Assembly: GCF_016724845.1 (NCBI RefSeq)
Contig: NZ_CP068082.1
Coordinates: forward strand, 1,984,001 to 2,048,000
From: Sphingobacterium spiritivorum
GTDB taxonomy: Bacteria; Bacteroidota; Bacteroidia; Sphingobacteriales; Sphingobacteriaceae
Reading direction: 5' to 3'
DNA: 64,000 nt
In this document: positions 28,855 to 38,823 of the stretch, one piece after another
Numbering within the stretch: position 1 is the stretch's first letter
Layout of the letters: every line of letters begins with the position of its first letter
The notes under the pieces: generated by a model
The model's database searches: none
What the model saw: only the letters and a program-made list of their open reading frames with translations
What the model was told of the DNA's origin: nothing
Translations under genes and position numbers: made by a program

Positions 28855-31647
28855 TTACTCTATAAAACTACCGTCTCCCTTTCTGCCCTTTCCCTTATCA
28901 TATCTACTCTTACCGAATAACTCCGGACGATATGAAAATTGCAGTAAGAAATACCTGCTATTGGTATTAGTTACCATATTACTATACCCCATATTACTGC
29001 TGACATAGTTTGTAACTGCATTTTCGCGGGTGGCATCCATTATAACAAAACTCAATATTCCATTTTTCTTAGGGAACAGCCGCTTCTCTATATTTGCATT
29101 GATTACAAAAGGTGATTTGTTAGTCATCAGATTGGTTGTATTATATACCGCCTGTGAAAGATCAAAGTTGACCGCCCAGTCTTTAGGCAGGTAAAACCCA
29201 AGTTTTGCATTAGCGAAGAAACTGTTGCTGTACGTGCTGCCGTTTGAACTGATCAGACTGTTTTTGTCCCGCAGGCCCTGATATTTAATCTCAGGAGCGA
29301 TATCTAACCATTTTACCGGATTGTATAAAATGGAGGCATGATATGTCTGGCTAAGCGATCTGCGTCCCTCTACCTTACCATTTGCCATATACGGATTATC
29401 ACTTTGCATAACATTTCCTGTCAGCTTCAGCGTAGAATTGAGTTTATTTAAAAATTTGGTTATTGTCAGATGACTCTGAAGCTGGTTTCCGCCAGCCATA
29501 TTCACATAACTGCTTTCTGTGATCAGTATATTCTTGTCGGGTATAATCCGGGCTGTGCGATTTGACGTTATGATTTTTTCATTTTTGGTATACATACCCA
29601 AAAAGGAAATGCTTAATCTCATTTTTCGCAGAAAGACCTCATATCTGATATCCGCAGCATTTCGTATAGTATTTTCCAGTTTTGGATTACCGATCTGTAC
29701 ATCATATGCAGTCAGATAATATGCGGTAGGATTGAGCATATAAATGGAAGGTTGTGTCATAATTTTACTGAGGCCCAGACTCAGACTCCCCGTTTTATTA
29801 TTTCTGAAACCTATTTTGAAACGTGGTGTCAAAAGTAAATCACTGCGTTTAATTGTCTGGCCATTTTGTGTTATTTTTCCAGAAAGTAACTGTACTGACC
29901 CGCCCAGTGAAGGAGACAGAAAAATACCATTTTTTAAGGATATCTCCGGTTCGATGGCAATGGGTAATCCAACATTGGTTTCGGACTGATAATTACTCAA
30001 CTCTGGATTATAAACTTCTGAACTCTGATCATCAATCAAGTAGGACCGAATATTCCGTAACGCATATTTATGTTGCAACCCCAGATTAAACTGATATTTG
30101 ATCAGATCACTTTTCTCCCAGATCAGCGAATTGTTCAGGTTGGTAGACCAGGTACTATTGTTTTGCGGACGTGTTTGATATACCGAGCTATCCGCTTTAG
30201 TCAGATCTGACGGATTATTGTAGATATCATTCTTACTGGTTTCATCCTTTCTTTCTGTATTTAAAGAACTGTAAAGCCCCGTCCGTAAGATTAGCTTCTT
30301 TGTCATCCGGGACTCATTCATTACGTTGAGATTATACTTTAACGTATTTCCCTTCTCGTTTTTCTCCAGTAACTCAAGTCCTTTTACAAGACCTGAGCGC
30401 AGTCCTTGTTCCAAACTGTTTCTGTCGAAGATAGTATAACTGAAATTGAGCGTGCCACTCATATTCAACACGCCCTGTCCGCTATTCGTATTGAACATGG
30501 TCATCAGTTCATGATTCTGATCGAGTTGTTTTTGGGATTGCAGATTCTCCACAGCAATATTACCTTGTTCATAATAGGTTTCACTACGCCTTTCTGTCCC
30601 CTTTTTGATATTATCCAGCTTAAAGTCGTAAGTTGGTGTCAGATTGAATTTACCTATTGCCAGACTTTGACTTATTCCTGCAAATGCATTTGCTGACCGG
30701 CCATAAGATTCGGTTTGTCTGCTTTCCCGGACTACAACGTTTGTTGTCATCCCCGAAATGGACCCGGGAACAGGATCGGATTTGAGACCCATCGGTCTTT
30801 GTGAATAGCCCATCTTATAGCTTCGCTGATCTTTACCATCTATCGTCCTGAGACTGGCTTGTCCTTTATAGTGGTCCTGCGTCCCCCCTTCGAGACTTAT
30901 ATCATACATTTTTCCGGCCGACTTATCTGCTTTTGTGACGACATTCAACACTTTAACACTTTGTTCGGACTTCAATATTTTGGAAGTCAATCCCGATTCG
31001 TCCCGGTCAATTATCTGAATACGCTCTACGATATCGGCCGGTAACTCTTTCATGATTTCCTGAACAGAGCCTTTAAAATATGTCTGATTATTGAACAAAG
31101 CTTTTACAACCCGTTGTCCGTTATAATATACGCTGCCATCCGGATCTATAGTGATCCCTTCCATCCTGCGCAGCAGATCTTCCAGTCGCGCATAGTCCCG
31201 TACAATATAATCTTTGGCCCAAAACTCTGTGGTATCCCCTTTTAGCAAAGGCCCCCGAAGTCCGGAAATGGTCACTTCCTCCAGCTGCGCTTCTTTGATA
31301 CCCAGTCGTATAGGAGGAATATTAAGTTGTGGCTTTATATCACTGTTAAAATATTTTCTGTTATAAGGTTTATGCCCTGTTGCCCGGATACTCAAAAGAA
31401 ATTCCGCAGATTTCACCTCTTTAAATCCATAATAACCAAACTTATTGGTAGCAGTCATTAAGCTGTCTTTGCCGGAGACCAGACTGACAGTTGCACCTTC
31501 GATTGGTTTATCCAAAGAGTCCCGCAGCAGACCGGAGACATTTCTCAAAGGCAGTGCCGTCGTTTTGGTCTGCCCCTCAACAGTATACATACTGCAAAAC
31601 AGCAACAAAACAAAAAAACAGAGATTAAGAATAGGATCTTTTCTCAT
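28855..31647 (-). CDS. TonB-dependent/beta-barrel outer-membrane protein with regulatory domain
   Basis: Outer-membrane protein of 930 residues with a signal peptide (LCFFVLLLFCSMYTVEGQ), a CarboxypepD_reg domain (VSGLLRDSLDKPIEGATVSL), and a plug-like part (LEEVTISGLRGPLLKGDTTE, YARLEDLLRRMEGITIDPDG, VYYNGQRVVKALFNNQTYFK, DIVERIQIIDRDESGLTSKI). The rest is a long barrel-like region with alternating Asn, Ser and Thr-rich strands. The segment that usually ends with a glycine-rich conserved plug tail is less canonical than in transporters, so it may be a non-TonB assembly or surface protein. Substrate unknown. Confidence 0.82.
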   Translation of the reverse strand: MRKDPILNLCFFVLLLFCSMYTVEGQTKTTALPLRNVSGLLRDSLDKPIEGATVSLVSGKDSLMTATNKFGYYGFKEVKSAEFLLSIRATGHKPYNRKYFNSDIKPQLNIPPIRLGIKEAQLEEVTISGLRGPLLKGDTTEFWAKDYIVRDYARLEDLLRRMEGITIDPDGSVYYNGQRVVKALFNNQTYFKGSVQEIMKELPADIVERIQIIDRDESGLTSKILKSEQSVKVLNVVTKADKSAGKMYDISLEGGTQDHYKGQASLRTIDGKDQRSYKMGYSQRPMGLKSDPVPGSISGMTTNVVVRESRQTESYGRSANAFAGISQSLAIGKFNLTPTYDFKLDNIKKGTERRSETYYEQGNIAVENLQSQKQLDQNHELMTMFNTNSGQGVLNMSGTLNFSYTIFDRNSLEQGLRSGLVKGLELLEKNEKGNTLKYNLNVMNESRMTKKLILRTGLYSSLNTERKDETSKNDIYNNPSDLTKADSSVYQTRPQNNSTWSTNLNNSLIWEKSDLIKYQFNLGLQHKYALRNIRSYLIDDQSSEVYNPELSNYQSETNVGLPIAIEPEISLKNGIFLSPSLGGSVQLLSGKITQNGQTIKRSDLLLTPRFKIGFRNNKTGSLSLGLSKIMTQPSIYMLNPTAYYLTAYDVQIGNPKLENTIRNAADIRYEVFLRKMRLSISFLGMYTKNEKIITSNRTARIIPDKNILITESSYVNMAGGNQLQSHLTITKFLNKLNSTLKLTGNVMQSDNPYMANGKVEGRRSLSQTYHASILYNPVKWLDIAPEIKYQGLRDKNSLISSNGSTYSNSFFANAKLGFYLPKDWAVNFDLSQAVYNTTNLMTNKSPFVINANIEKRLFPKKNGILSFVIMDATRENAVTNYVSSNMGYSNMVTNTNSRYFLLQFSYRPELFGKSRYDKGKGRKGDGSFIE

Positions 31648-32186
31648 GATCCTCAGTTAAATAGTAAAGACCAATATTTCAGAAGATTTGTATATGTCCA
31701 AAATTTGCTTTTTAAGTGGTTCTGCGACTGGAGAATTCACATTAAATTTTGACTTTTTAAACCGTCTGTGCTACATATTGATATTTCCCATGAATGAAAA
31801 AAACGATTTGTAAAATACAATCACAACAACAACATTCTCAAAAAACAAACATATTTCAATAAAGTAACAAATTTTTATATCAAAAAACAAAAACAAACAT
31901 TTCACATTCAGATAAAAATATTCTGCATCGCAAACAGAATACTAACAACCATACTCATTAAACAAGCGATTAAAACAGCATATAAAATACATTTACGCTG
32001 TTTAGACCAGATTTTAGACGTTCTCAGCCATAGCTTGCGTCGACACATATAGTCAAAATGCACAGTATTTATTGATAAACAACTAAACCTTTACAACATT
32101 AATAAATATCACACAAATGTAAAAAAATAAATCTAAACAACAATATTGTCGTTAATTCATTTATGTTTGGAGAAAATTATTTACCA
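31648..32186. other. Long AT-rich gap between divergent genes
   Basis: About 540 bases without a convincing gene, noticeably richer in A and T than its surroundings and with many A-runs. An inverted repeat AAACAGC ... GCTGTTT (~31974-32003) has a long loop. Apart from the -7 box at 32162-32169 I see no RNA gene, transposon end or clear operator. It marks the left edge of the run of secreted-protein genes. Confidence 0.4.
32162..32169 (+). promoter_or_regulatory. -7 element (TATGTTTG) of the secreted-protein run
   Basis: Exact TAnnTTTG 17 nt before the ATG at 32187. It overlaps the other in-frame ATG at 32163, which argues for the later start. No -33 TTG lies at the expected distance. Confidence 0.45.
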
Positions 32187-33263
32187 ATGGCTAGCGCAAG
32201 AGTCACCATATTTGTTTTTATTTCTACAATTCTATTGTTTGCGACAGCATGTTTAAATGGCAAGGAAAATAAAGTTAAAAAATATGAATTTGACGACAAC
32301 CACGAAATAGAACAACTTCTTCTTGAAAACACAAAAGCTAAAAATTTTTTGGTCCTAATACTCACCGTTCCAAAATGCCAGTTGTGCTTCAGTATAAAAA
32401 ACATCACAACTCGAACATCCGGATTACCTCCTAATGTAATTTTCAGATCTGTTGATGTCAACAAACCCAGCAACAAATGGATAAGTCAATTGACACGAGA
32501 TTATTCATTTCCAACTACTTTAATCTTTACGCCTGAAAACAAACTAACAGCCTATATTAAGGGTGCTAATATCCCCAACATCAAAGAGGGATTTCAGAAA
32601 GCTTTTAACGGAAGCACCTATTACTTCGATGCGGAATCTCCATTTTTGAATACATATACGATAGCCGGAGACGACAGCCAATCTCTCAAGCTGGATTTTC
32701 TGGACAACCTCATCATTTCTTATTTGACTTTGCAACAAAAGAAAAAGCCAAACGAAAAGCTAATAAATACATTAAAAACCAACAGCAAAAACTATCCTTA
32801 CTTCTTCAATACATATCTCCTGTACAGATTGTCCGGCAATAAAAACTATGTGAATGATCTGACCTACAGCTATAATGACAATATCGATCAGTTTTTGTAC
32901 AGCTCACTAAAGAAAGAGATCGCTGCCCGTGAAGACCCTGACCGTGTCTATATGGCTCCGGGGATTTCACTACGGAAGGATTCTATCGACTTTGGAACCC
33001 GTAGAAGCGGAGAATCCGGGACTGTATCTATCCAAATCCGAAATGTGGGAAAAAGTACGCTCCAACTAACAGATATCGCCCCATCCTGCAACTGTCTTCG
33101 CGTGATATGGAACAAAAAGACAGACCTTGCTCCGGGTGAAGAAACCAATATCGAAACCAAATATTACCTGGATAACAAGGGAAGGTTCGAACATAAAGTA
33201 TTTATTTTCTCGAATGCAATGGATGCCCCGAAAGAGTTCACAATTACCGGAATGGTAAATTAA
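32187..33263 (+). CDS. Lipoprotein with thioredoxin-like and DUF1573 domains
   Basis: Lipoprotein of about 358 residues (signal VTIFVFISTILLFATAC). The N-terminal half is thioredoxin-like: CxxC in LTVPKCQLCFSIKN, then RDYSFPTTLIFTPENKLTAY with the usual cis-Pro-like position. The last ~90 residues form a DUF1573/ASH-type beta domain (LRKDSIDFGTRRSGESGTVS, then IAPSCNCLRVIWNKKTDLAPGE). Such proteins are common at the Bacteroidota cell surface or periplasm, without a set function. I prefer the ATG at 32187 over 32163 because a -7 box covers the latter. It heads a run of six same-strand secreted genes, the next starting 32 bases on. Confidence 0.78.
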   Translation: MASARVTIFVFISTILLFATACLNGKENKVKKYEFDDNHEIEQLLLENTKAKNFLVLILTVPKCQLCFSIKNITTRTSGLPPNVIFRSVDVNKPSNKWISQLTRDYSFPTTLIFTPENKLTAYIKGANIPNIKEGFQKAFNGSTYYFDAESPFLNTYTIAGDDSQSLKLDFLDNLIISYLTLQQKKKPNEKLINTLKTNSKNYPYFFNTYLLYRLSGNKNYVNDLTYSYNDNIDQFLYSSLKKEIAAREDPDRVYMAPGISLRKDSIDFGTRRSGESGTVSIQIRNVGKSTLQLTDIAPSCNCLRVIWNKKTDLAPGEETNIETKYYLDNKGRFEHKVFIFSNAMDAPKEFTITGMVN

Positions 33264-33295: not shown

Positions 33296-33604
33296 ATGAA
33301 AGCAACAATTATCATGTTAACACTGATTCTGATGAATCTTTGTTATCTTAATCCGGCAAAGGCACAAGGTGGCTGGACAATTGATATTAATCTGGACATG
33401 TGCCGCGAAGTAAAACTTGGGTACACTTTTTACCCTAATTATTCGGATTGTCGATGGTTTTATATTTGTGATCAGGGAAATACATATGCAATTCAATGCC
33501 CGGCACCATTGATATGGGATGTAAGAACCAATACCTGTTCCTGGCCGTTCTCATCTTTTAATGTTGCCCTGAATTGTCCTTACCTCAGAGCAGGGGACTT
33601 ATAG
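33296..33604 (+). CDS. Secreted peritrophin-A-like chitin-binding (CBM14) protein
   Basis: Small exported protein, 102 residues: signal peptide MKATIIMLTLILMNLCYLNP ending KAQ, then a single domain with six cysteines (36, 52, 58, 68, 81, 94). Their spacing C-x15-C-x5-C-x9-C-x12-C-x12-C fits the peritrophin-A/CBM14 consensus, and the aromatic pattern also fits (GYTFYPNYSDCRWFYICDQ, CPAPLIWDVRTNTCSWP). CBM14 binds chitin in insects and other animals through three disulfides; it is rare in bacteria. It sits between a thioredoxin-like lipoprotein and four tandem secreted paralogues. Chitin binding is inferred from the fold. Disulfides would form in the periplasm or outside the cell. Confidence 0.78.
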   Translation: MKATIIMLTLILMNLCYLNPAKAQGGWTIDINLDMCREVKLGYTFYPNYSDCRWFYICDQGNTYAIQCPAPLIWDVRTNTCSWPFSSFNVALNCPYLRAGDL

Positions 33605-33645: not shown

Positions 33646-34281
33646 ATGAAATTGTTCCGCGTTACTTTTTTAATCTTTCTGATACCGCTAGTCATAAAAG
33701 CGCAGACATCTCCTACTGAAGGCATGCAATATGACCCGGAGAATGCGCTTTACTGGAAAATATCCAACGACAGCGAAAATCTCTATATAAAGCTGTATAA
33801 GGATGAGTATGCGCAAAAGATCAGGCAGCCTGGAGGTGTGTGGTTCTTTTTCAATACAAAAGGAGAAAGAGATACTGTAGCTGTACCTACACTACAGTAT
33901 CCTATATTCAAAGACTCAATGAATCTGGATGCAATGGCTATTTATCATTTTAAAGATATACCCAATGGTGAGCTGCCAAAGTACAACGCCTACGGAATAT
34001 TGACGGAAGGAAAATTGGAAGAGAAAAAAGGAACCTTTACTTGGAGCAAAGATCATTTGATTTATTCCTCTTCCATCACTGTACCCCTGCAATATATCCA
34101 AAGCAGCAGTACAAAACTGACTATACAGATCCTGCTCAAGGGACGACGAATAGTTCCGCTTCCTCCGGGTGCGGTATCCCCTATACTCATATCCACAGTA
34201 ATGGGGTCGCAGGAGGTAAAGGATATGTTGTATGCGACAGATATATGGACACATTGCTGGATAGATTATGAAATAATGTAA
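33646..34281 (+). CDS. Secreted protein of unknown family, tandem copy 1
   Basis: Exported protein of 211 residues (signal peptide VTFLIFLIPLVIKAQ). Shared family blocks are ENALYWKISNDSENLYIKLY, GGVWFFFNTKGERDTVAVP, YHFKDIPNGELPKYNAYGIL, PPGAVSPILIST and the C-terminal WTHCWIDYEIM. The strand-rich pattern recalls beta-sandwich DOMON/CBM9-like domains of other Bacteroidota exported proteins, but I do not recognise the family. It has one Cys, near the C-terminus. Its body is nearly identical to copy 4, while its first ~45 bases and upstream sequence differ from those of the other copies. Confidence 0.85.
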   Translation: MKLFRVTFLIFLIPLVIKAQTSPTEGMQYDPENALYWKISNDSENLYIKLYKDEYAQKIRQPGGVWFFFNTKGERDTVAVPTLQYPIFKDSMNLDAMAIYHFKDIPNGELPKYNAYGILTEGKLEEKKGTFTWSKDHLIYSSSITVPLQYIQSSSTKLTIQILLKGRRIVPLPPGAVSPILISTVMGSQEVKDMLYATDIWTHCWIDYEIM

Positions 34282-34330
34282 GGGTCACAATATGCTGTTG
34301 GTATATACAAGATTTTTCAATTCTAAATAC

Positions 34331-34966
34331 ATGAAATTATTCCGCCTTACTTTTCTGATCCTTCTGATGCCGCTAGCCACAAAGGCGCAGACATCACCGA
34401 CTCAGGAGATGCAGTATGATCCGGAGAATGCACTTTACTGGAAAATCTCCAATGACAGCGAAAATCTCTATATAAAGCTGTATAAGGACGAGTATGCGCA
34501 AAAGATCGGGCAACCCGGAGGTGTCTGGTTCTTTTTCAATCCTAAAGGAGAAAAGGATACTGTAGCTGTACCCACACTACAGTATCCCATATATAAAAGA
34601 CCAATGAATCTGGAGGTAATGGCTGTTTATCACTTTAAAGATATACCCGATGGTGAACAGCCCAAATACAACCCCTTTGGCATACTAGCCGAAGGTATAT
34701 TGAAAGAGAGAGAAGATGTATCTATCTGGAGCAAAAACCATACGATATATTCCGCATCTATAACTGTACCCCTGCACTATATCCGGACAACCGGCTCTAA
34801 GCTGGCTATACAGATCCTGCTCAAAGGACGGCGAAAAGTTCCGCTTCCTCCAGGTGCGGTATCACCTATACTGATATCTACATCTACAGCCTCAAAGGAG
34901 GTAGATGATATGCTCTATGCAACAGACATCTGGACACATTGCTGGATAGATTATGAAATAATGTAG
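34331..34966 (+). CDS. Secreted protein of unknown family, tandem copy 2
   Basis: Second paralogue, 211 residues, with signal peptide LTFLILLMPLATKAQ. Compared with copy 1 it has QIGQPGGVWFFFNPKGEKDT-type changes, RPMNLEVMAVYHF, and IWSKNHTIYSASITVPLHYI. The conserved C-terminal end WTHCWIDYEIM is unchanged. An in-frame ATG 13 codons earlier (34292) lies in the repeated spacer; I chose 34331 because it aligns with copy 1 and begins the signal peptide. Function unknown. Confidence 0.85.
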   Translation: MKLFRLTFLILLMPLATKAQTSPTQEMQYDPENALYWKISNDSENLYIKLYKDEYAQKIGQPGGVWFFFNPKGEKDTVAVPTLQYPIYKRPMNLEVMAVYHFKDIPDGEQPKYNPFGILAEGILKEREDVSIWSKNHTIYSASITVPLHYIRTTGSKLAIQILLKGRRKVPLPPGAVSPILISTSTASKEVDDMLYATDIWTHCWIDYEIM

Positions 34967-35009
34967 GGGTGACAATATGCTGTTGGTATATACAAGATTT
35001 TTCAGACAC

Positions 35010-35645
35010 ATGAAATTATTCCACCTTACTTTTTTAACCCTTCTGATACCGCTAACCATAAAAGCGCAGACATCTCCTACTGAAGGTATGCAATATGACC
35101 CGGAGAATGCGCTTTACTGGAAAATAACCAACGACAAAGAAAATCTATATATTCAATTGTACAAGAACGAATATGCACAAAAAGTTAAACAAAAAGGAGG
35201 TATCCGTATCTTTTTCAATCCAAATGGACAAAGGGATACTGTAGCTGTACCCACACTACAGTATCCCATATATAAAAGACCAATGAATCTGGATGTGATG
35301 GCTGTCTATCATTTTAAAGATATACCCGATGGTGAACTGCCAAAATACAACGCCTACGGCATATTGACCGAAGGAAAACTGGAGGAGAATGAGGGCACAA
35401 CAATTTGGAGTAAAGATCAATTTATCTATTCTGCATCTCTCACTGTACCCTTACAATGTATCCGGATAAATGGCTCTAAGCTGGCTATACAGATTCTGCT
35501 CAAAGGTATGCGTACAGTTGCGCTTCCTGCAGGTGCAGTATCCCCCATACTGATATCCACAACAACAGCCCCACAAGAGGCAAAAGATTATATATATGTC
35601 GTGGACACGTGGACACATTGCTGGATAGATTATGAAATAATGTAG
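35010..35645 (+). CDS. Secreted protein of unknown family, tandem copy 3
   Basis: Third paralogue, 211 residues (signal LTFLTLLIPLTIKAQ). It is the most diverged in the middle: NDKENLYIQLYKNEYAQKVK, QKGGIRIFFNPNGQRDTVAV and ALPAGAVSPILISTTTAPQE, and near the end YIYVVDTWTHCWIDYEIM. The core spacing of all blocks is kept, so the fold should be the same and ligand contacts could differ. The start aligns with copy 1; an in-frame ATG at 34977 lies in the spacer. Confidence 0.85.
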   Translation: MKLFHLTFLTLLIPLTIKAQTSPTEGMQYDPENALYWKITNDKENLYIQLYKNEYAQKVKQKGGIRIFFNPNGQRDTVAVPTLQYPIYKRPMNLDVMAVYHFKDIPDGELPKYNAYGILTEGKLEENEGTTIWSKDQFIYSASLTVPLQCIRINGSKLAIQILLKGMRTVALPAGAVSPILISTTTAPQEAKDYIYVVDTWTHCWIDYEIM

Positions 35646-35688
35646 GGGTGACAATATGCTGTTGGTATATACAAGATTTTTCAGACAC

Positions 35689-36327
35689 ATGAAATTATTC
35701 CACCTTACTTTTCTGATCCTTCTGATACCGCTAGTCATAAAAGCGCAGACATCTCCTACTGAAGGCATGCAATATGACCCGGAGAATGCGCTTTACTGGA
35801 AAATATCCAACGACAGCGAAAATCTCTATATAAAGCTGTATAAGGATGAGTATGCGCAAAAGATCAGGCAGCCTGGAGGTGTGTGGTTCTTTTTCAATAC
35901 AAAAGGAGAAAGAGATACTGTAGCTGTACCTACACTACAGTATCCTATATTCAAAGACTCAATGAATCTGGATGCAATGGCTATCTATCATTTTAAAGAT
36001 ATACCTAATGGTGAGCTGCCAAAGTACAACGCCTACGGAATATTGACGGAAGGAAAATTGAAAGAGAAAAAAGGAACCTTCACTTGGAGCAAAGATCATT
36101 TGATTTATTCCTCTTCCATCACTGTACCCCTGCAATATATCCAAAGCAGCACTACAAAACTGACTATACAGATCCTGCTCAAGGGACGACGAATAGTTCC
36201 GCTTCCTCCGGGTGCGGTATCCCCTATACTCATATCCACAGTAATGGGGTCGCAGGAGGTAAAGGATATGTTGTATGCGACAGACATCTGGACACATTGC
36301 TGGATAAATTATGAAATATCCATGTAG
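35689..36327 (+). CDS. Secreted protein of unknown family, tandem copy 4
   Basis: Fourth paralogue, 212 residues. The signal-peptide segment (MKLFHLTFLILLIPL) matches copies 2-3, while from VIKAQ onwards it is nearly the same as copy 1, with only a handful of base differences over ~590 bases. This mosaic points to recombination between copies. The C-terminus reads WINYEISM after a 3-base insertion. The conserved spacer is absent after it. The gene ends facing a terminator of the opposite strand. Confidence 0.85.
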   Translation: MKLFHLTFLILLIPLVIKAQTSPTEGMQYDPENALYWKISNDSENLYIKLYKDEYAQKIRQPGGVWFFFNTKGERDTVAVPTLQYPIFKDSMNLDAMAIYHFKDIPNGELPKYNAYGILTEGKLKEKKGTFTWSKDHLIYSSSITVPLQYIQSSTTKLTIQILLKGRRIVPLPPGAVSPILISTVMGSQEVKDMLYATDIWTHCWINYEISM

Positions 36328-36402: not shown

Positions 36403-38823
36403 TTATTGTGCACGGCTTTTCTCTTCGTTCCCTGTGTCTTTTTTATTGAAATTATTTTTCAGGTTTCCAAATTTATAGGTGTATGTCAATCTGACCACAC
36501 GACGGTCATGTGTCTGACGGATTCTGGTATTGAATTCACCAAAGTTTGTTGACAGATTATGATTACCCGTATTGAATATATCGTTTACGGCCAGTTTGAT
36601 CAGGCTTCTTTGATTCTTAAAGGTCTTGGTAACTCCCAGATCCAGATTCCAGCGAGATTCCAGTTTGTAAATATTATAGGAAAACGGAGACATATAATTC
36701 ACATTTGCCTCAGCAGACAACAAAGAAGAAATCTTAAATGTACTCATGGAATTTCCCTGAAAAAGTACCGTCTGCCGGTTTAATGCATTATTGGCAACCT
36801 CTCCTTCAAACTTCATGTAAACAGCTGTCATGTTATTATACATCGACCAGAATTTTGTTACGGTTACCGGAACATTCAGATTGATGTAAGCCTCTTTATT
36901 TCTTCCCAGATTTTCGCGTGTTACCCAGGTTGTATTTGTTGTTGCATCCTGCCCCATACTCTCCACGATCGCATCTTTCTTGACTGTGTAGCCCATAGCG
37001 ATGTTATATTTCTGTAATAAGGTATAGTTAAACTTATATTCATCTGCATATTGCGGATTCAGATACGGATTTCCTCTCTCTGATGTAAACTTATCAATGA
37101 AATAATCGAACGGATTCAGATACTTATAGTTTGGACGATTGATTCTTCTGGCATATCCTACAGACACAATATGATTAGGGCTGACCGTATAGGTAAGTGT
37201 ACCCGTAGGGAACAGATCCAGATAATCCCGCTTTGAGCGTTTACCCATTGTAATGGAATTACCATCAGACTGTGTATACTCCGCTCTTAGTCCGGTTTTT
37301 AAACCCCACTTGCCAAACTGACCTGAATAATCCACATATCCTGCAGCGATTTGCTCTTTATAGATAAAGTGGTTTGTTCGGGTCGTATCATTTACCCAAT
37401 TATTCCCTTCAAACTGCTCAAATAAAAGGTCGTTATCGGATTTCACATTCGAATATTTCGCTCCCAGATCTATTGTGTGATTTTTATTCAAGGGATGAGA
37501 ATAATCTAATTTTGCTACGTAAATATCAATCCCGACCGGCATATCACTTTGCAGCAATTCTGCTGTACCTATCAGCTGGTTATCAGGACGAAAAGTTCTG
37601 TTATCATAATCCGCTCCTTTGCTGTTTCGGAATCTGCTCCAGTCCAGATCCAGTACCAGCTTACGTCCGGTAGAATCAATCTTAAATTCATTATTAAAAT
37701 TGACAGAATAGTTATTGAAACGCTCTTTATAATCTGAAACTGACCTTACGATCGAATCAACAGGATTATTCACAATCCGCACTTCCGTTGTACTCCCATT
37801 ATCATTCAGTTCATTATTGTTACGACCGATGAATTGCAGTACCATTGTGTTCTTTGCTGATGTTTTCTGCTCTACACCAAATTTGTAACTATGTGTCCTG
37901 TCCCGTGCATCAATCTGACTAATCTGAGAAAAATTAGTATTTATTCCATTATTTGCAATAGTTCTGTCGACGTTGATATCATTGATATAGCGCTCGTTGA
38001 AATAGGAATATGATGTAAACACATTTGTATTGTTCTTTTTATAATTTACAGACAGGGAAGTATTTCCTCTGAATCTGCGCGCCTGAGCGGCAGATATATT
38101 GAAATTTCCGTTGAAGCCTTCAATTTTATTCTTCTTCAGAACGATGTTGATCGTACCTGTAGATCCTTCTGCATCGTCTTTACCGGAAGTGGCCGTAATA
38201 ACTTCTACAGATTTGACCTGATTGCCATCGGTACTCTTTAATAAAGTGGCTAATTGATCTCCAGTCATATAAGTCTGACGACCATCTATTGTAACATTAA
38301 TACCACTCTGCCCCATCAACTGAATATTGTCATTCTGATCTACACTTACACCGGGAGCTCTTTTGATAATTTCCAGTGCATTATTACCTGCAGCCAATGG
38401 TGAGTCTTCTACATTCAGAATTAACTTCCCCTGTTTATTCTCGATCAAAGGCTTCTTTCCCTGTACCTGCACTTCTGCAAGTACGGTTGAAGAATTTTTG
38501 AGAATAAGGTCAGCTACTCTTCTGTTCTGACCATTGATATCCGTGACTGCTGATTTTTCCTTTGCATATCCTACACTGTTTGCTTCAATAATATATTTGC
38601 CCTCCGGAACATTTACAAATTCATATTCTCCCTTTTCATTGGATACTGTCGACTTCAGAAGCACTTGTTTTTCCGCCACATACAGATACATAGTCGCTGC
38701 CGCAACGGGCTGTTGCTTTTCATCCACAATCCTTCCTTTCAGGTTATTATCCTGCGCCAACACATTCAGTTTCCCAACATAGAATACGGCTGTAATAATT
38801 AATAATTGTATTAGTCTTTTCAT
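36403..38823 (-). CDS. Outer-membrane beta-barrel protein (OMP_b-brl_3 type)
   Basis: Protein of 806 residues with a signal peptide (LLIITAVFYVGKLNVLAQ), a CarboxypepD_reg domain (LKGRIVDEKQQPVAAATMYL), a plug-like segment (LEIIKRAPGVSVDQNDNIQL, INVTIDGRQTYMTGDQLATL, VITATSGKDDAEGSTGTINI) and a barrel ending in VRLTYTYKFGNLKNNF. It belongs to the same family as the protein at 23439-25829. Substrate and TonB dependence are unknown. It is read alone and has its own terminator. Confidence 0.88.
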   Translation of the reverse strand: MKRLIQLLIITAVFYVGKLNVLAQDNNLKGRIVDEKQQPVAAATMYLYVAEKQVLLKSTVSNEKGEYEFVNVPEGKYIIEANSVGYAKEKSAVTDINGQNRRVADLILKNSSTVLAEVQVQGKKPLIENKQGKLILNVEDSPLAAGNNALEIIKRAPGVSVDQNDNIQLMGQSGINVTIDGRQTYMTGDQLATLLKSTDGNQVKSVEVITATSGKDDAEGSTGTINIVLKKNKIEGFNGNFNISAAQARRFRGNTSLSVNYKKNNTNVFTSYSYFNERYINDINVDRTIANNGINTNFSQISQIDARDRTHSYKFGVEQKTSAKNTMVLQFIGRNNNELNDNGSTTEVRIVNNPVDSIVRSVSDYKERFNNYSVNFNNEFKIDSTGRKLVLDLDWSRFRNSKGADYDNRTFRPDNQLIGTAELLQSDMPVGIDIYVAKLDYSHPLNKNHTIDLGAKYSNVKSDNDLLFEQFEGNNWVNDTTRTNHFIYKEQIAAGYVDYSGQFGKWGLKTGLRAEYTQSDGNSITMGKRSKRDYLDLFPTGTLTYTVSPNHIVSVGYARRINRPNYKYLNPFDYFIDKFTSERGNPYLNPQYADEYKFNYTLLQKYNIAMGYTVKKDAIVESMGQDATTNTTWVTRENLGRNKEAYINLNVPVTVTKFWSMYNNMTAVYMKFEGEVANNALNRQTVLFQGNSMSTFKISSLLSAEANVNYMSPFSYNIYKLESRWNLDLGVTKTFKNQRSLIKLAVNDIFNTGNHNLSTNFGEFNTRIRQTHDRRVVRLTYTYKFGNLKNNFNKKDTGNEEKSRAQ

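Follow-up and report, generated by a model that had tools for sequence, protein, structure and literature searches.

A stand-alone CBM14 protein encoded behind a CxxC lipoprotein

In a 64,000-nucleotide stretch of the Sphingobacterium spiritivorum genome (NZ_CP068082.1, positions 1,984,001 to 2,048,000; hereafter the window), a short gene starting at 33296 encodes a predicted-secreted, stand-alone CBM14 (peritrophin-A) protein and follows the gene of a lipoprotein that joins a thioredoxin-like half, bearing a CxxC motif, to a DUF1573 domain. We propose, with slightly less than even confidence, that the CBM14 protein is exported and binds chitin, and that the lipoprotein in front of it is likely responsible for forming or correcting its three disulfide bonds. 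Somewhat more tentatively, we suggest that this arrangement represents a Bacteroidota cassette in which the CxxC lipoprotein would let the host capture and fold eukaryotic-type modules, CBM14 for chitin and CBM1 for cellulose, swapped in one slot or scaffold, as single-module secreted glycan catchers.

The sequence-only reading of this stretch had put forward a stand-alone CBM14 domain with peritrophin-A cysteine spacing and matching aromatic residues. A PF01607 (CBM_14) search, named beforehand as a result that could overturn this claim, matched above the Pfam cut-off (E 5e-10; 39.8 bits against 22.1) with protein residues 42-86 aligned to profile positions 5-49 of 53, and CBM_14 was the sole Pfam family matched at E up to 1. 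A signal peptide of classical type, predicted by eye, covers residues 1-24 and ends in AKA before Q (residues 22-25). The six cysteines after the signal (C36, C52, C58, C68, C81 and C94) are spaced 15-5-9-12-12 as described, in keeping with the six-cysteine spacing rule of peritrophin-A. The fold prediction, named beforehand in the same way, fared likewise, with CBM14-type chains as the top structure matches of the predicted model.

Among proteins of solved structure, chitinases match the sequence best, and P69, L72 and W83 align to P451, L454 and W465 of human chitotriosidase, named as crucial for chitin binding. Family membership combined with these contact positions makes chitin the most likely ligand of the window protein; where a relative lacks W, F or Y at position 83, the assignment is less sure. 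A ligand other than chitin (such as polyphenols or another glycan), with CBM14 serving as a scaffold of changed specificity, appears distinctly improbable: both the three retained contact residues and the chitinase matches argue against it.

The sequence-only reading was right about the domain and incomplete about the system, for the gene sits in a conserved neighbourhood rather than in isolation, and the lipoprotein, the CBM9-like proteins and the outer-membrane barrel around it had been missed. Only 32 bases separate the lipoprotein stop from the CBM14 start, and no terminator-like site was found between them. The DUF1573 domain of the lipoprotein matches at 69.3 bits (Pfam). The CxxC cysteines are invariant in 7/7 aligned proteins, and a profile of seven lipoprotein relatives matched the DsbD thioredoxin domain (E 2.7e-4); the single window sequence gave only insignificant matches, and no Pfam thioredoxin family.

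The CxxC motif accompanies the module genes

Starting from CBM14 in surveys of Bacteroidota (genomes and loci are cited below by our G and L numbers), a CxxC thioredoxin-like gene adjoins 13 of the 18 CBM14 loci. Among the 13, a CBM9-like gene stands between the two genes in G621, DUF1573 is missing in G232 and G621, locus C24 of G136 has a shortened thioredoxin half with CSIC, and the thioredoxin gene is split by frame breaks at two loci of S. paucimobilis HER1398 (G042), which belongs to the same genus as the source genome and holds three lipoprotein-search loci. In the S. paucimobilis lipoprotein at L013:3856-4836, whose open reading frame (ORF) starts late, the motif CSMC was read by eye. 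Only once the rule had been formed were two further CBM14 arrays of Chitinophaga solisilvae (three and four genes) examined; a CxxC thioredoxin-DUF1573 gene stands next to each of them (CPPC and CSPC). The neighbourhood is conserved in Sphingobacterium, Pedobacter, Chitinophaga and relatives. Several cassettes also have a small XRE-type regulator beside them, all of one family (Table 1); the same profile found none in the window.

Counting from the lipoprotein, with each protein that has both halves entered once, gave 20 two-domain proteins among the matches listed, 16 with CxxC and 4 without (G077, G026, lipoprotein C3 of G136 and one of two neighbouring C. solisilvae copies). In these listed matches a CBM14 or CBM1 gene was adjacent or one gene away for 16/16 CxxC proteins versus 1/4 of those without CxxC, the C. 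solisilvae copy being the only CxxC-less lipoprotein beside CBM14 (Fisher's exact P 0.0035, kinship ignored). Duplicate rows were merged before the count (L065 with C3 of G136, Solitalea agri; L060 with G346, Pedobacter sp. KBW06; L066 with G375), and G136 is counted twice, as lipoprotein C3, which has neither CxxC nor module, and as CBM14 locus C24. In the order survey, 8/8 genomes with a CxxC lipoprotein carry CBM14 or CBM1 against a background of 16/400, and 3/3 do so once the five profile-training genomes are removed. The 16 background genomes include a doubtful G111 hit (22.0 bits, two stop codons) that was left out of the 18 loci.

These counts also bear on the possibility that the lipoprotein is no folding helper but serves, together with the barrel, a glycan-uptake complex as its structural or redox-sensing component, and that only co-inheritance ties it to cysteine-rich modules. 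The lipoprotein does lie near the barrel and the CBM9-like proteins, which are mostly cysteine-poor, and copies without CxxC persist (G077, G026, G136 and C. solisilvae), two of them beside cysteine-bearing proteins. By contrast, 16/17 listed copies found with a module have CxxC, 3/3 copies that have no module lack it, and we therefore regard the uptake-complex explanation as unlikely.

CBM1 occupies the same slot in relatives

Behind the CxxC lipoprotein of G256, G122 and G422 lies a small gene that encodes CBM1 (46.4, 52.3 and 39.4 bits against a cut-off of 20.6). PF00734 was found at six places in 5/400 order genomes, all above the cut-off (the remaining three at 49.8, 34.9 and 45.0 bits); it was found neither in 14 control genomes nor in three Chitinophaga genomes nor in the source genome. 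A CxxC lipoprotein immediately precedes four of the six places, each in a different genome, and 4/5 CBM1 genomes share a genus group with the named Pedobacter genomes. In G360, the neighbour of the CxxC gene encodes a CBM1-like protein without a Pfam call, and the called CBM1 protein (49.8 bits) is 2.9 kb away; a second CBM1 protein of G422 (294 aa, 45.0 bits) has no CxxC lipoprotein neighbour.

G297 is a fourth case: behind the CxxC lipoprotein lies a protein in which CBM1 is fused to a C-terminal domain, and a profile of CBM14-linked members only (G000, the source genome; G232; G034) matched that domain at 3e-14. The next gene encodes a lipoprotein family that also follows the CBM14 version (4e-25; both E-values were computed for a small ORF set). 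A G297 paralogue without CBM and without cysteine has no such CxxC lipoprotein adjoining it, a single case that again speaks against the uptake-complex explanation. As a separate observation, this uncharacterised C-terminal domain, with CBM14, CBM1 or no module, stands next to one lipoprotein family in 5/5 instances.

Across these loci the CxxC lipoprotein stays constant; what varies is the small cysteine-rich module, of a type known chiefly from animals or fungi. A dedicated disulfide helper would be the simplest account of the linkage. Fungal-type CBM1 domains of a coccolithophore are reported to bind chitin in addition to cellulose (PMC5962083).

That three CBM1 loci (G360, G256 and G122) have 'bacteriocin fulvocin C-related' proteins nearby raises the possibility that the cassette encodes antimicrobial or antifungal proteins, with CBM14 binding a competitor's wall polymer as tachycitin does and the CBM9-like genes duplicating in an arms race. 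The structure matches of the CBM14 model include tachycitin, an antimicrobial protein that binds chitin. Next to the P. africanus cassette (L074:3171-3449) lies the gene of a small peptide that is rich in cysteine and has, by eye, a leader of double-glycine type; its CBM14-like half scores 16.1 bits, under the cut-off of 22.1. An 80% identical S. spiritivorum homologue, annotated 'Chitin binding Peritrophin-A domain' in the public record, differs from the window protein at 20 residues, of which 16 fall within residues 39-71, a region chosen post hoc. However, a local profile found fulvocin-related proteins in only 3/30 large loci, all with CBM1 and none with CBM14, and the tandem CBM9-like genes in the window are under purifying selection (for the diverged pairs, dN, nonsynonymous divergence, 0.12-0.15; dS, synonymous divergence, 0.56-0.68; dN/dS ~0.2). 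An antimicrobial role thus seems improbable.

Proposed mechanism and the points that weigh against it

We return to the reading in which the lipoprotein serves the disulfides of an exported chitin-binding protein. Both proteins would enter the periplasm, the lipoprotein being membrane-anchored, as suggested by the signal peptide and the lipobox. There the lipoprotein may oxidise or reshuffle the cysteines of the module, a step to which the CxxC motif, the DsbD-like profile match and the linkage point. The folded CBM14 protein and the co-encoded CBM9-like proteins might then act at the cell surface or outside, possibly taking hold of fungal or arthropod chitin to forage on it or to attach, and the linked barrel could provide an outer-membrane route or anchor.

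Several results weigh against this reading. The mean pLDDT (predicted local distance difference test) of the CBM14 model is 74.6. The Trp100 and Asp102 essential in Avr4 fall on T80 and S82 and are not kept. W, F or Y occupies the chitotriosidase (CHIT1) tryptophan position in 10/16 aligned relatives; the other 6/16 rows are without them at position 83, one having His and one a gap, and 4/16 relatives have four cysteines instead of six. No outer-membrane-crossing signal was identified. The cassette holds no chitinase, the one GH18 of the genome above the cut-off lying ~370 kb off (2.388 Mb) in a search for GH18 only; on this distance a chitin-utilisation locus was rejected as an interpretation, GH19, GH20 and AA10 not having been sought.

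The linkage has its own weak points. No CxxC gene adjoins 5/18 CBM14 loci (the one at 2.897 Mb in the source genome, a CBM14-CBM9 fusion of S. paucimobilis, G034, G188 and G238). CBM14-linked members served to train the lipoprotein search profile, and the best candidates per genome were listed (five per genome in the 400-genome order survey). The CxxC-less lipoproteins of G077 and G026 adjoin larger proteins with 8 and 10 cysteines. Finally, a 311-aa G359 protein (L095:931-1866) has CLSC plus DUF1573 in a genome without CBM14 or CBM1; its first half is unlike that of the cassette lipoprotein and was not matched by the profile, so that it was excluded from the 20, and counting it would turn 16/16 into 16/17. 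Our confidence was lowered because of this protein and the cysteine-bearing neighbours in G077 and G026.

Distribution and relation to known systems

CBM14 occurs at four places in the source genome, a single contig of 5,275,260 bases. These form three loci: the window gene, 2.210 Mb (a pair) and 2.897 Mb (one place). The domain was carried by 3/93 genomes of the genus, 6/201 of the family, 11/400 of the order and 2/395 of the phylum, in overlapping samples whose family and order counts include the doubtful G111 hit, and by none of 14 control genomes. Both modules are rare in the surveyed bacteria (11/400 order genomes for CBM14 and 5/400 for CBM1). Protein searches with family alignments returned 8 and 10 proteins, the named ones from Sphingobacterium, Pedobacter or Chitinophaga; these searches require shared five-residue words and similar length, and are thus compatible with the existence of eukaryotic relatives. 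A plasmid origin was rejected, as no tblastn match was obtained in a plasmid collection. PF01607 is listed in Ralstonia solanacearum in a 2005 paper (PMC554113).

The window protein resembles CBM14/peritrophin-A proteins (PF01607; chitotriosidase, tachycitin, Der p 23 and fungal Avr4) in sequence family, six-cysteine spacing, predicted fold and chitotriosidase contact positions, whereas it is bacterial, stand-alone and predicted to be secreted, without an attached catalytic domain, and forms part of an operon-like array together with a thiol-disulfide lipoprotein. CBM1 (PF00734, 'fungal cellulose binding domain') sits, in relatives, in the corresponding slot after a lipoprotein of this kind and is a distinct sequence family. 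The lipoprotein recalls DsbD-type thioredoxin and thiol:disulfide interchange proteins in its CxxC and its profile match, and differs from them in being fused to DUF1573 and linked to a specific small protein. A barrel with a CarboxypepD_reg domain beside secreted proteins of glycan-binding type is reminiscent of SusCD-type loci; however, the eight proteins scanned with Pfam between 28855 and 38823 include no SusD-like lipoprotein and no enzyme family.

We found no description of the cassette or of the CBM14/CBM1 exchange in searches of the open-licence PMC literature; the domain itself is already annotated publicly. If the proposal is true, a locus with its own disulfide helper and module swap would explain how bacteria are able to adopt such domains, Bacteroidota would have a new way to hold chitin or cellulose, and a ready-made helper would be at hand for making CBM1 and CBM14 proteins in bacteria.

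Genes around CBM14 in the window and coordinates of features

Four tandem CBM9-like paralogues lie downstream of CBM14 (Table 1), with a predicted fold that may be a CBM9/DOMON-like beta-sandwich. None of 19 members of this tandem family gave a sequence match to a CBM9 family, and the matches to other families were three stray weak ones. Copies 1 and 4 share 97.8% DNA identity over 630 bases, pointing to a recent duplication or conversion. The family of the divergently placed barrel recurs in several CBM14 cassettes of relatives. Between 31600 and 36500, 12 promoter-like sites were counted against 16.5 in shuffles and 6 terminator-like sites against 3.0 (sd 1.7), with one + strand terminator-like stem lying within the CBM14 gene.

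Table 1. Positions of the genes and domains discussed (window numbering unless an L number is given)
Feature	Position	Strand	Remarks
Stand-alone CBM14 (peritrophin-A) protein, 102 aa	33296..33604	+	ATG start; domain residues 42-86 (33419-33553)
Lipoprotein, thioredoxin-like half and C-terminal DUF1573	32163..33263	+	lipobox by eye; CxxC is CQLC (residues 72-75)
Tandem CBM9-like secreted protein, copy 1	33646..34281	+	
Tandem CBM9-like secreted protein, copy 2	34292..34966	+	likely start 34331
Tandem CBM9-like secreted protein, copy 3	34977..35645	+	likely start 35010
Tandem CBM9-like secreted protein, copy 4	35656..36327	+	likely start 35689
Outer-membrane barrel, N-terminal CarboxypepD_reg domain	28855..31647	-	divergently placed
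CBM1 small secreted proteins	L104:5824-6009; L105:6217-6396; L106:6198-6668; L114:6428-6904		directly behind CxxC thioredoxin-DUF1573 lipoprotein
CBM1 small secreted protein	L113:5957-6172		not directly behind such a lipoprotein
Uncharacterised C-terminal domain	L016:6987-7514; L068:7269-7517; L071:6960-7457; L114:6428-6904; L114:9149-9535		
Fulvocin C-related proteins	L113:6207-6857; L113:6775-7491; L104:2440-3081; L104:3100-3813; L105:2509-3171		NF033852 64-89 bits for four, fifth by local profile
XRE-type regulators	L015:7193-7453; L074:8468-8710; L060:7571-7810; L070:6362-6592; L071:5939-6199		one family

A second barrel at 36403-38823 was included in the Pfam scan, and no tie to the cassette was drawn for it. 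In S. paucimobilis HER1398, 32 CBM9-like ORFs or pieces were found in L013, L014 and L015; they form tandem arrays that run to contig ends, several of them cut or split, and represent a duplicating family without a Pfam entry. Away from the cassette, an ORF at 21-2099 of the window reads, by eye, as a peptidase-containing ABC exporter of double-glycine peptides.
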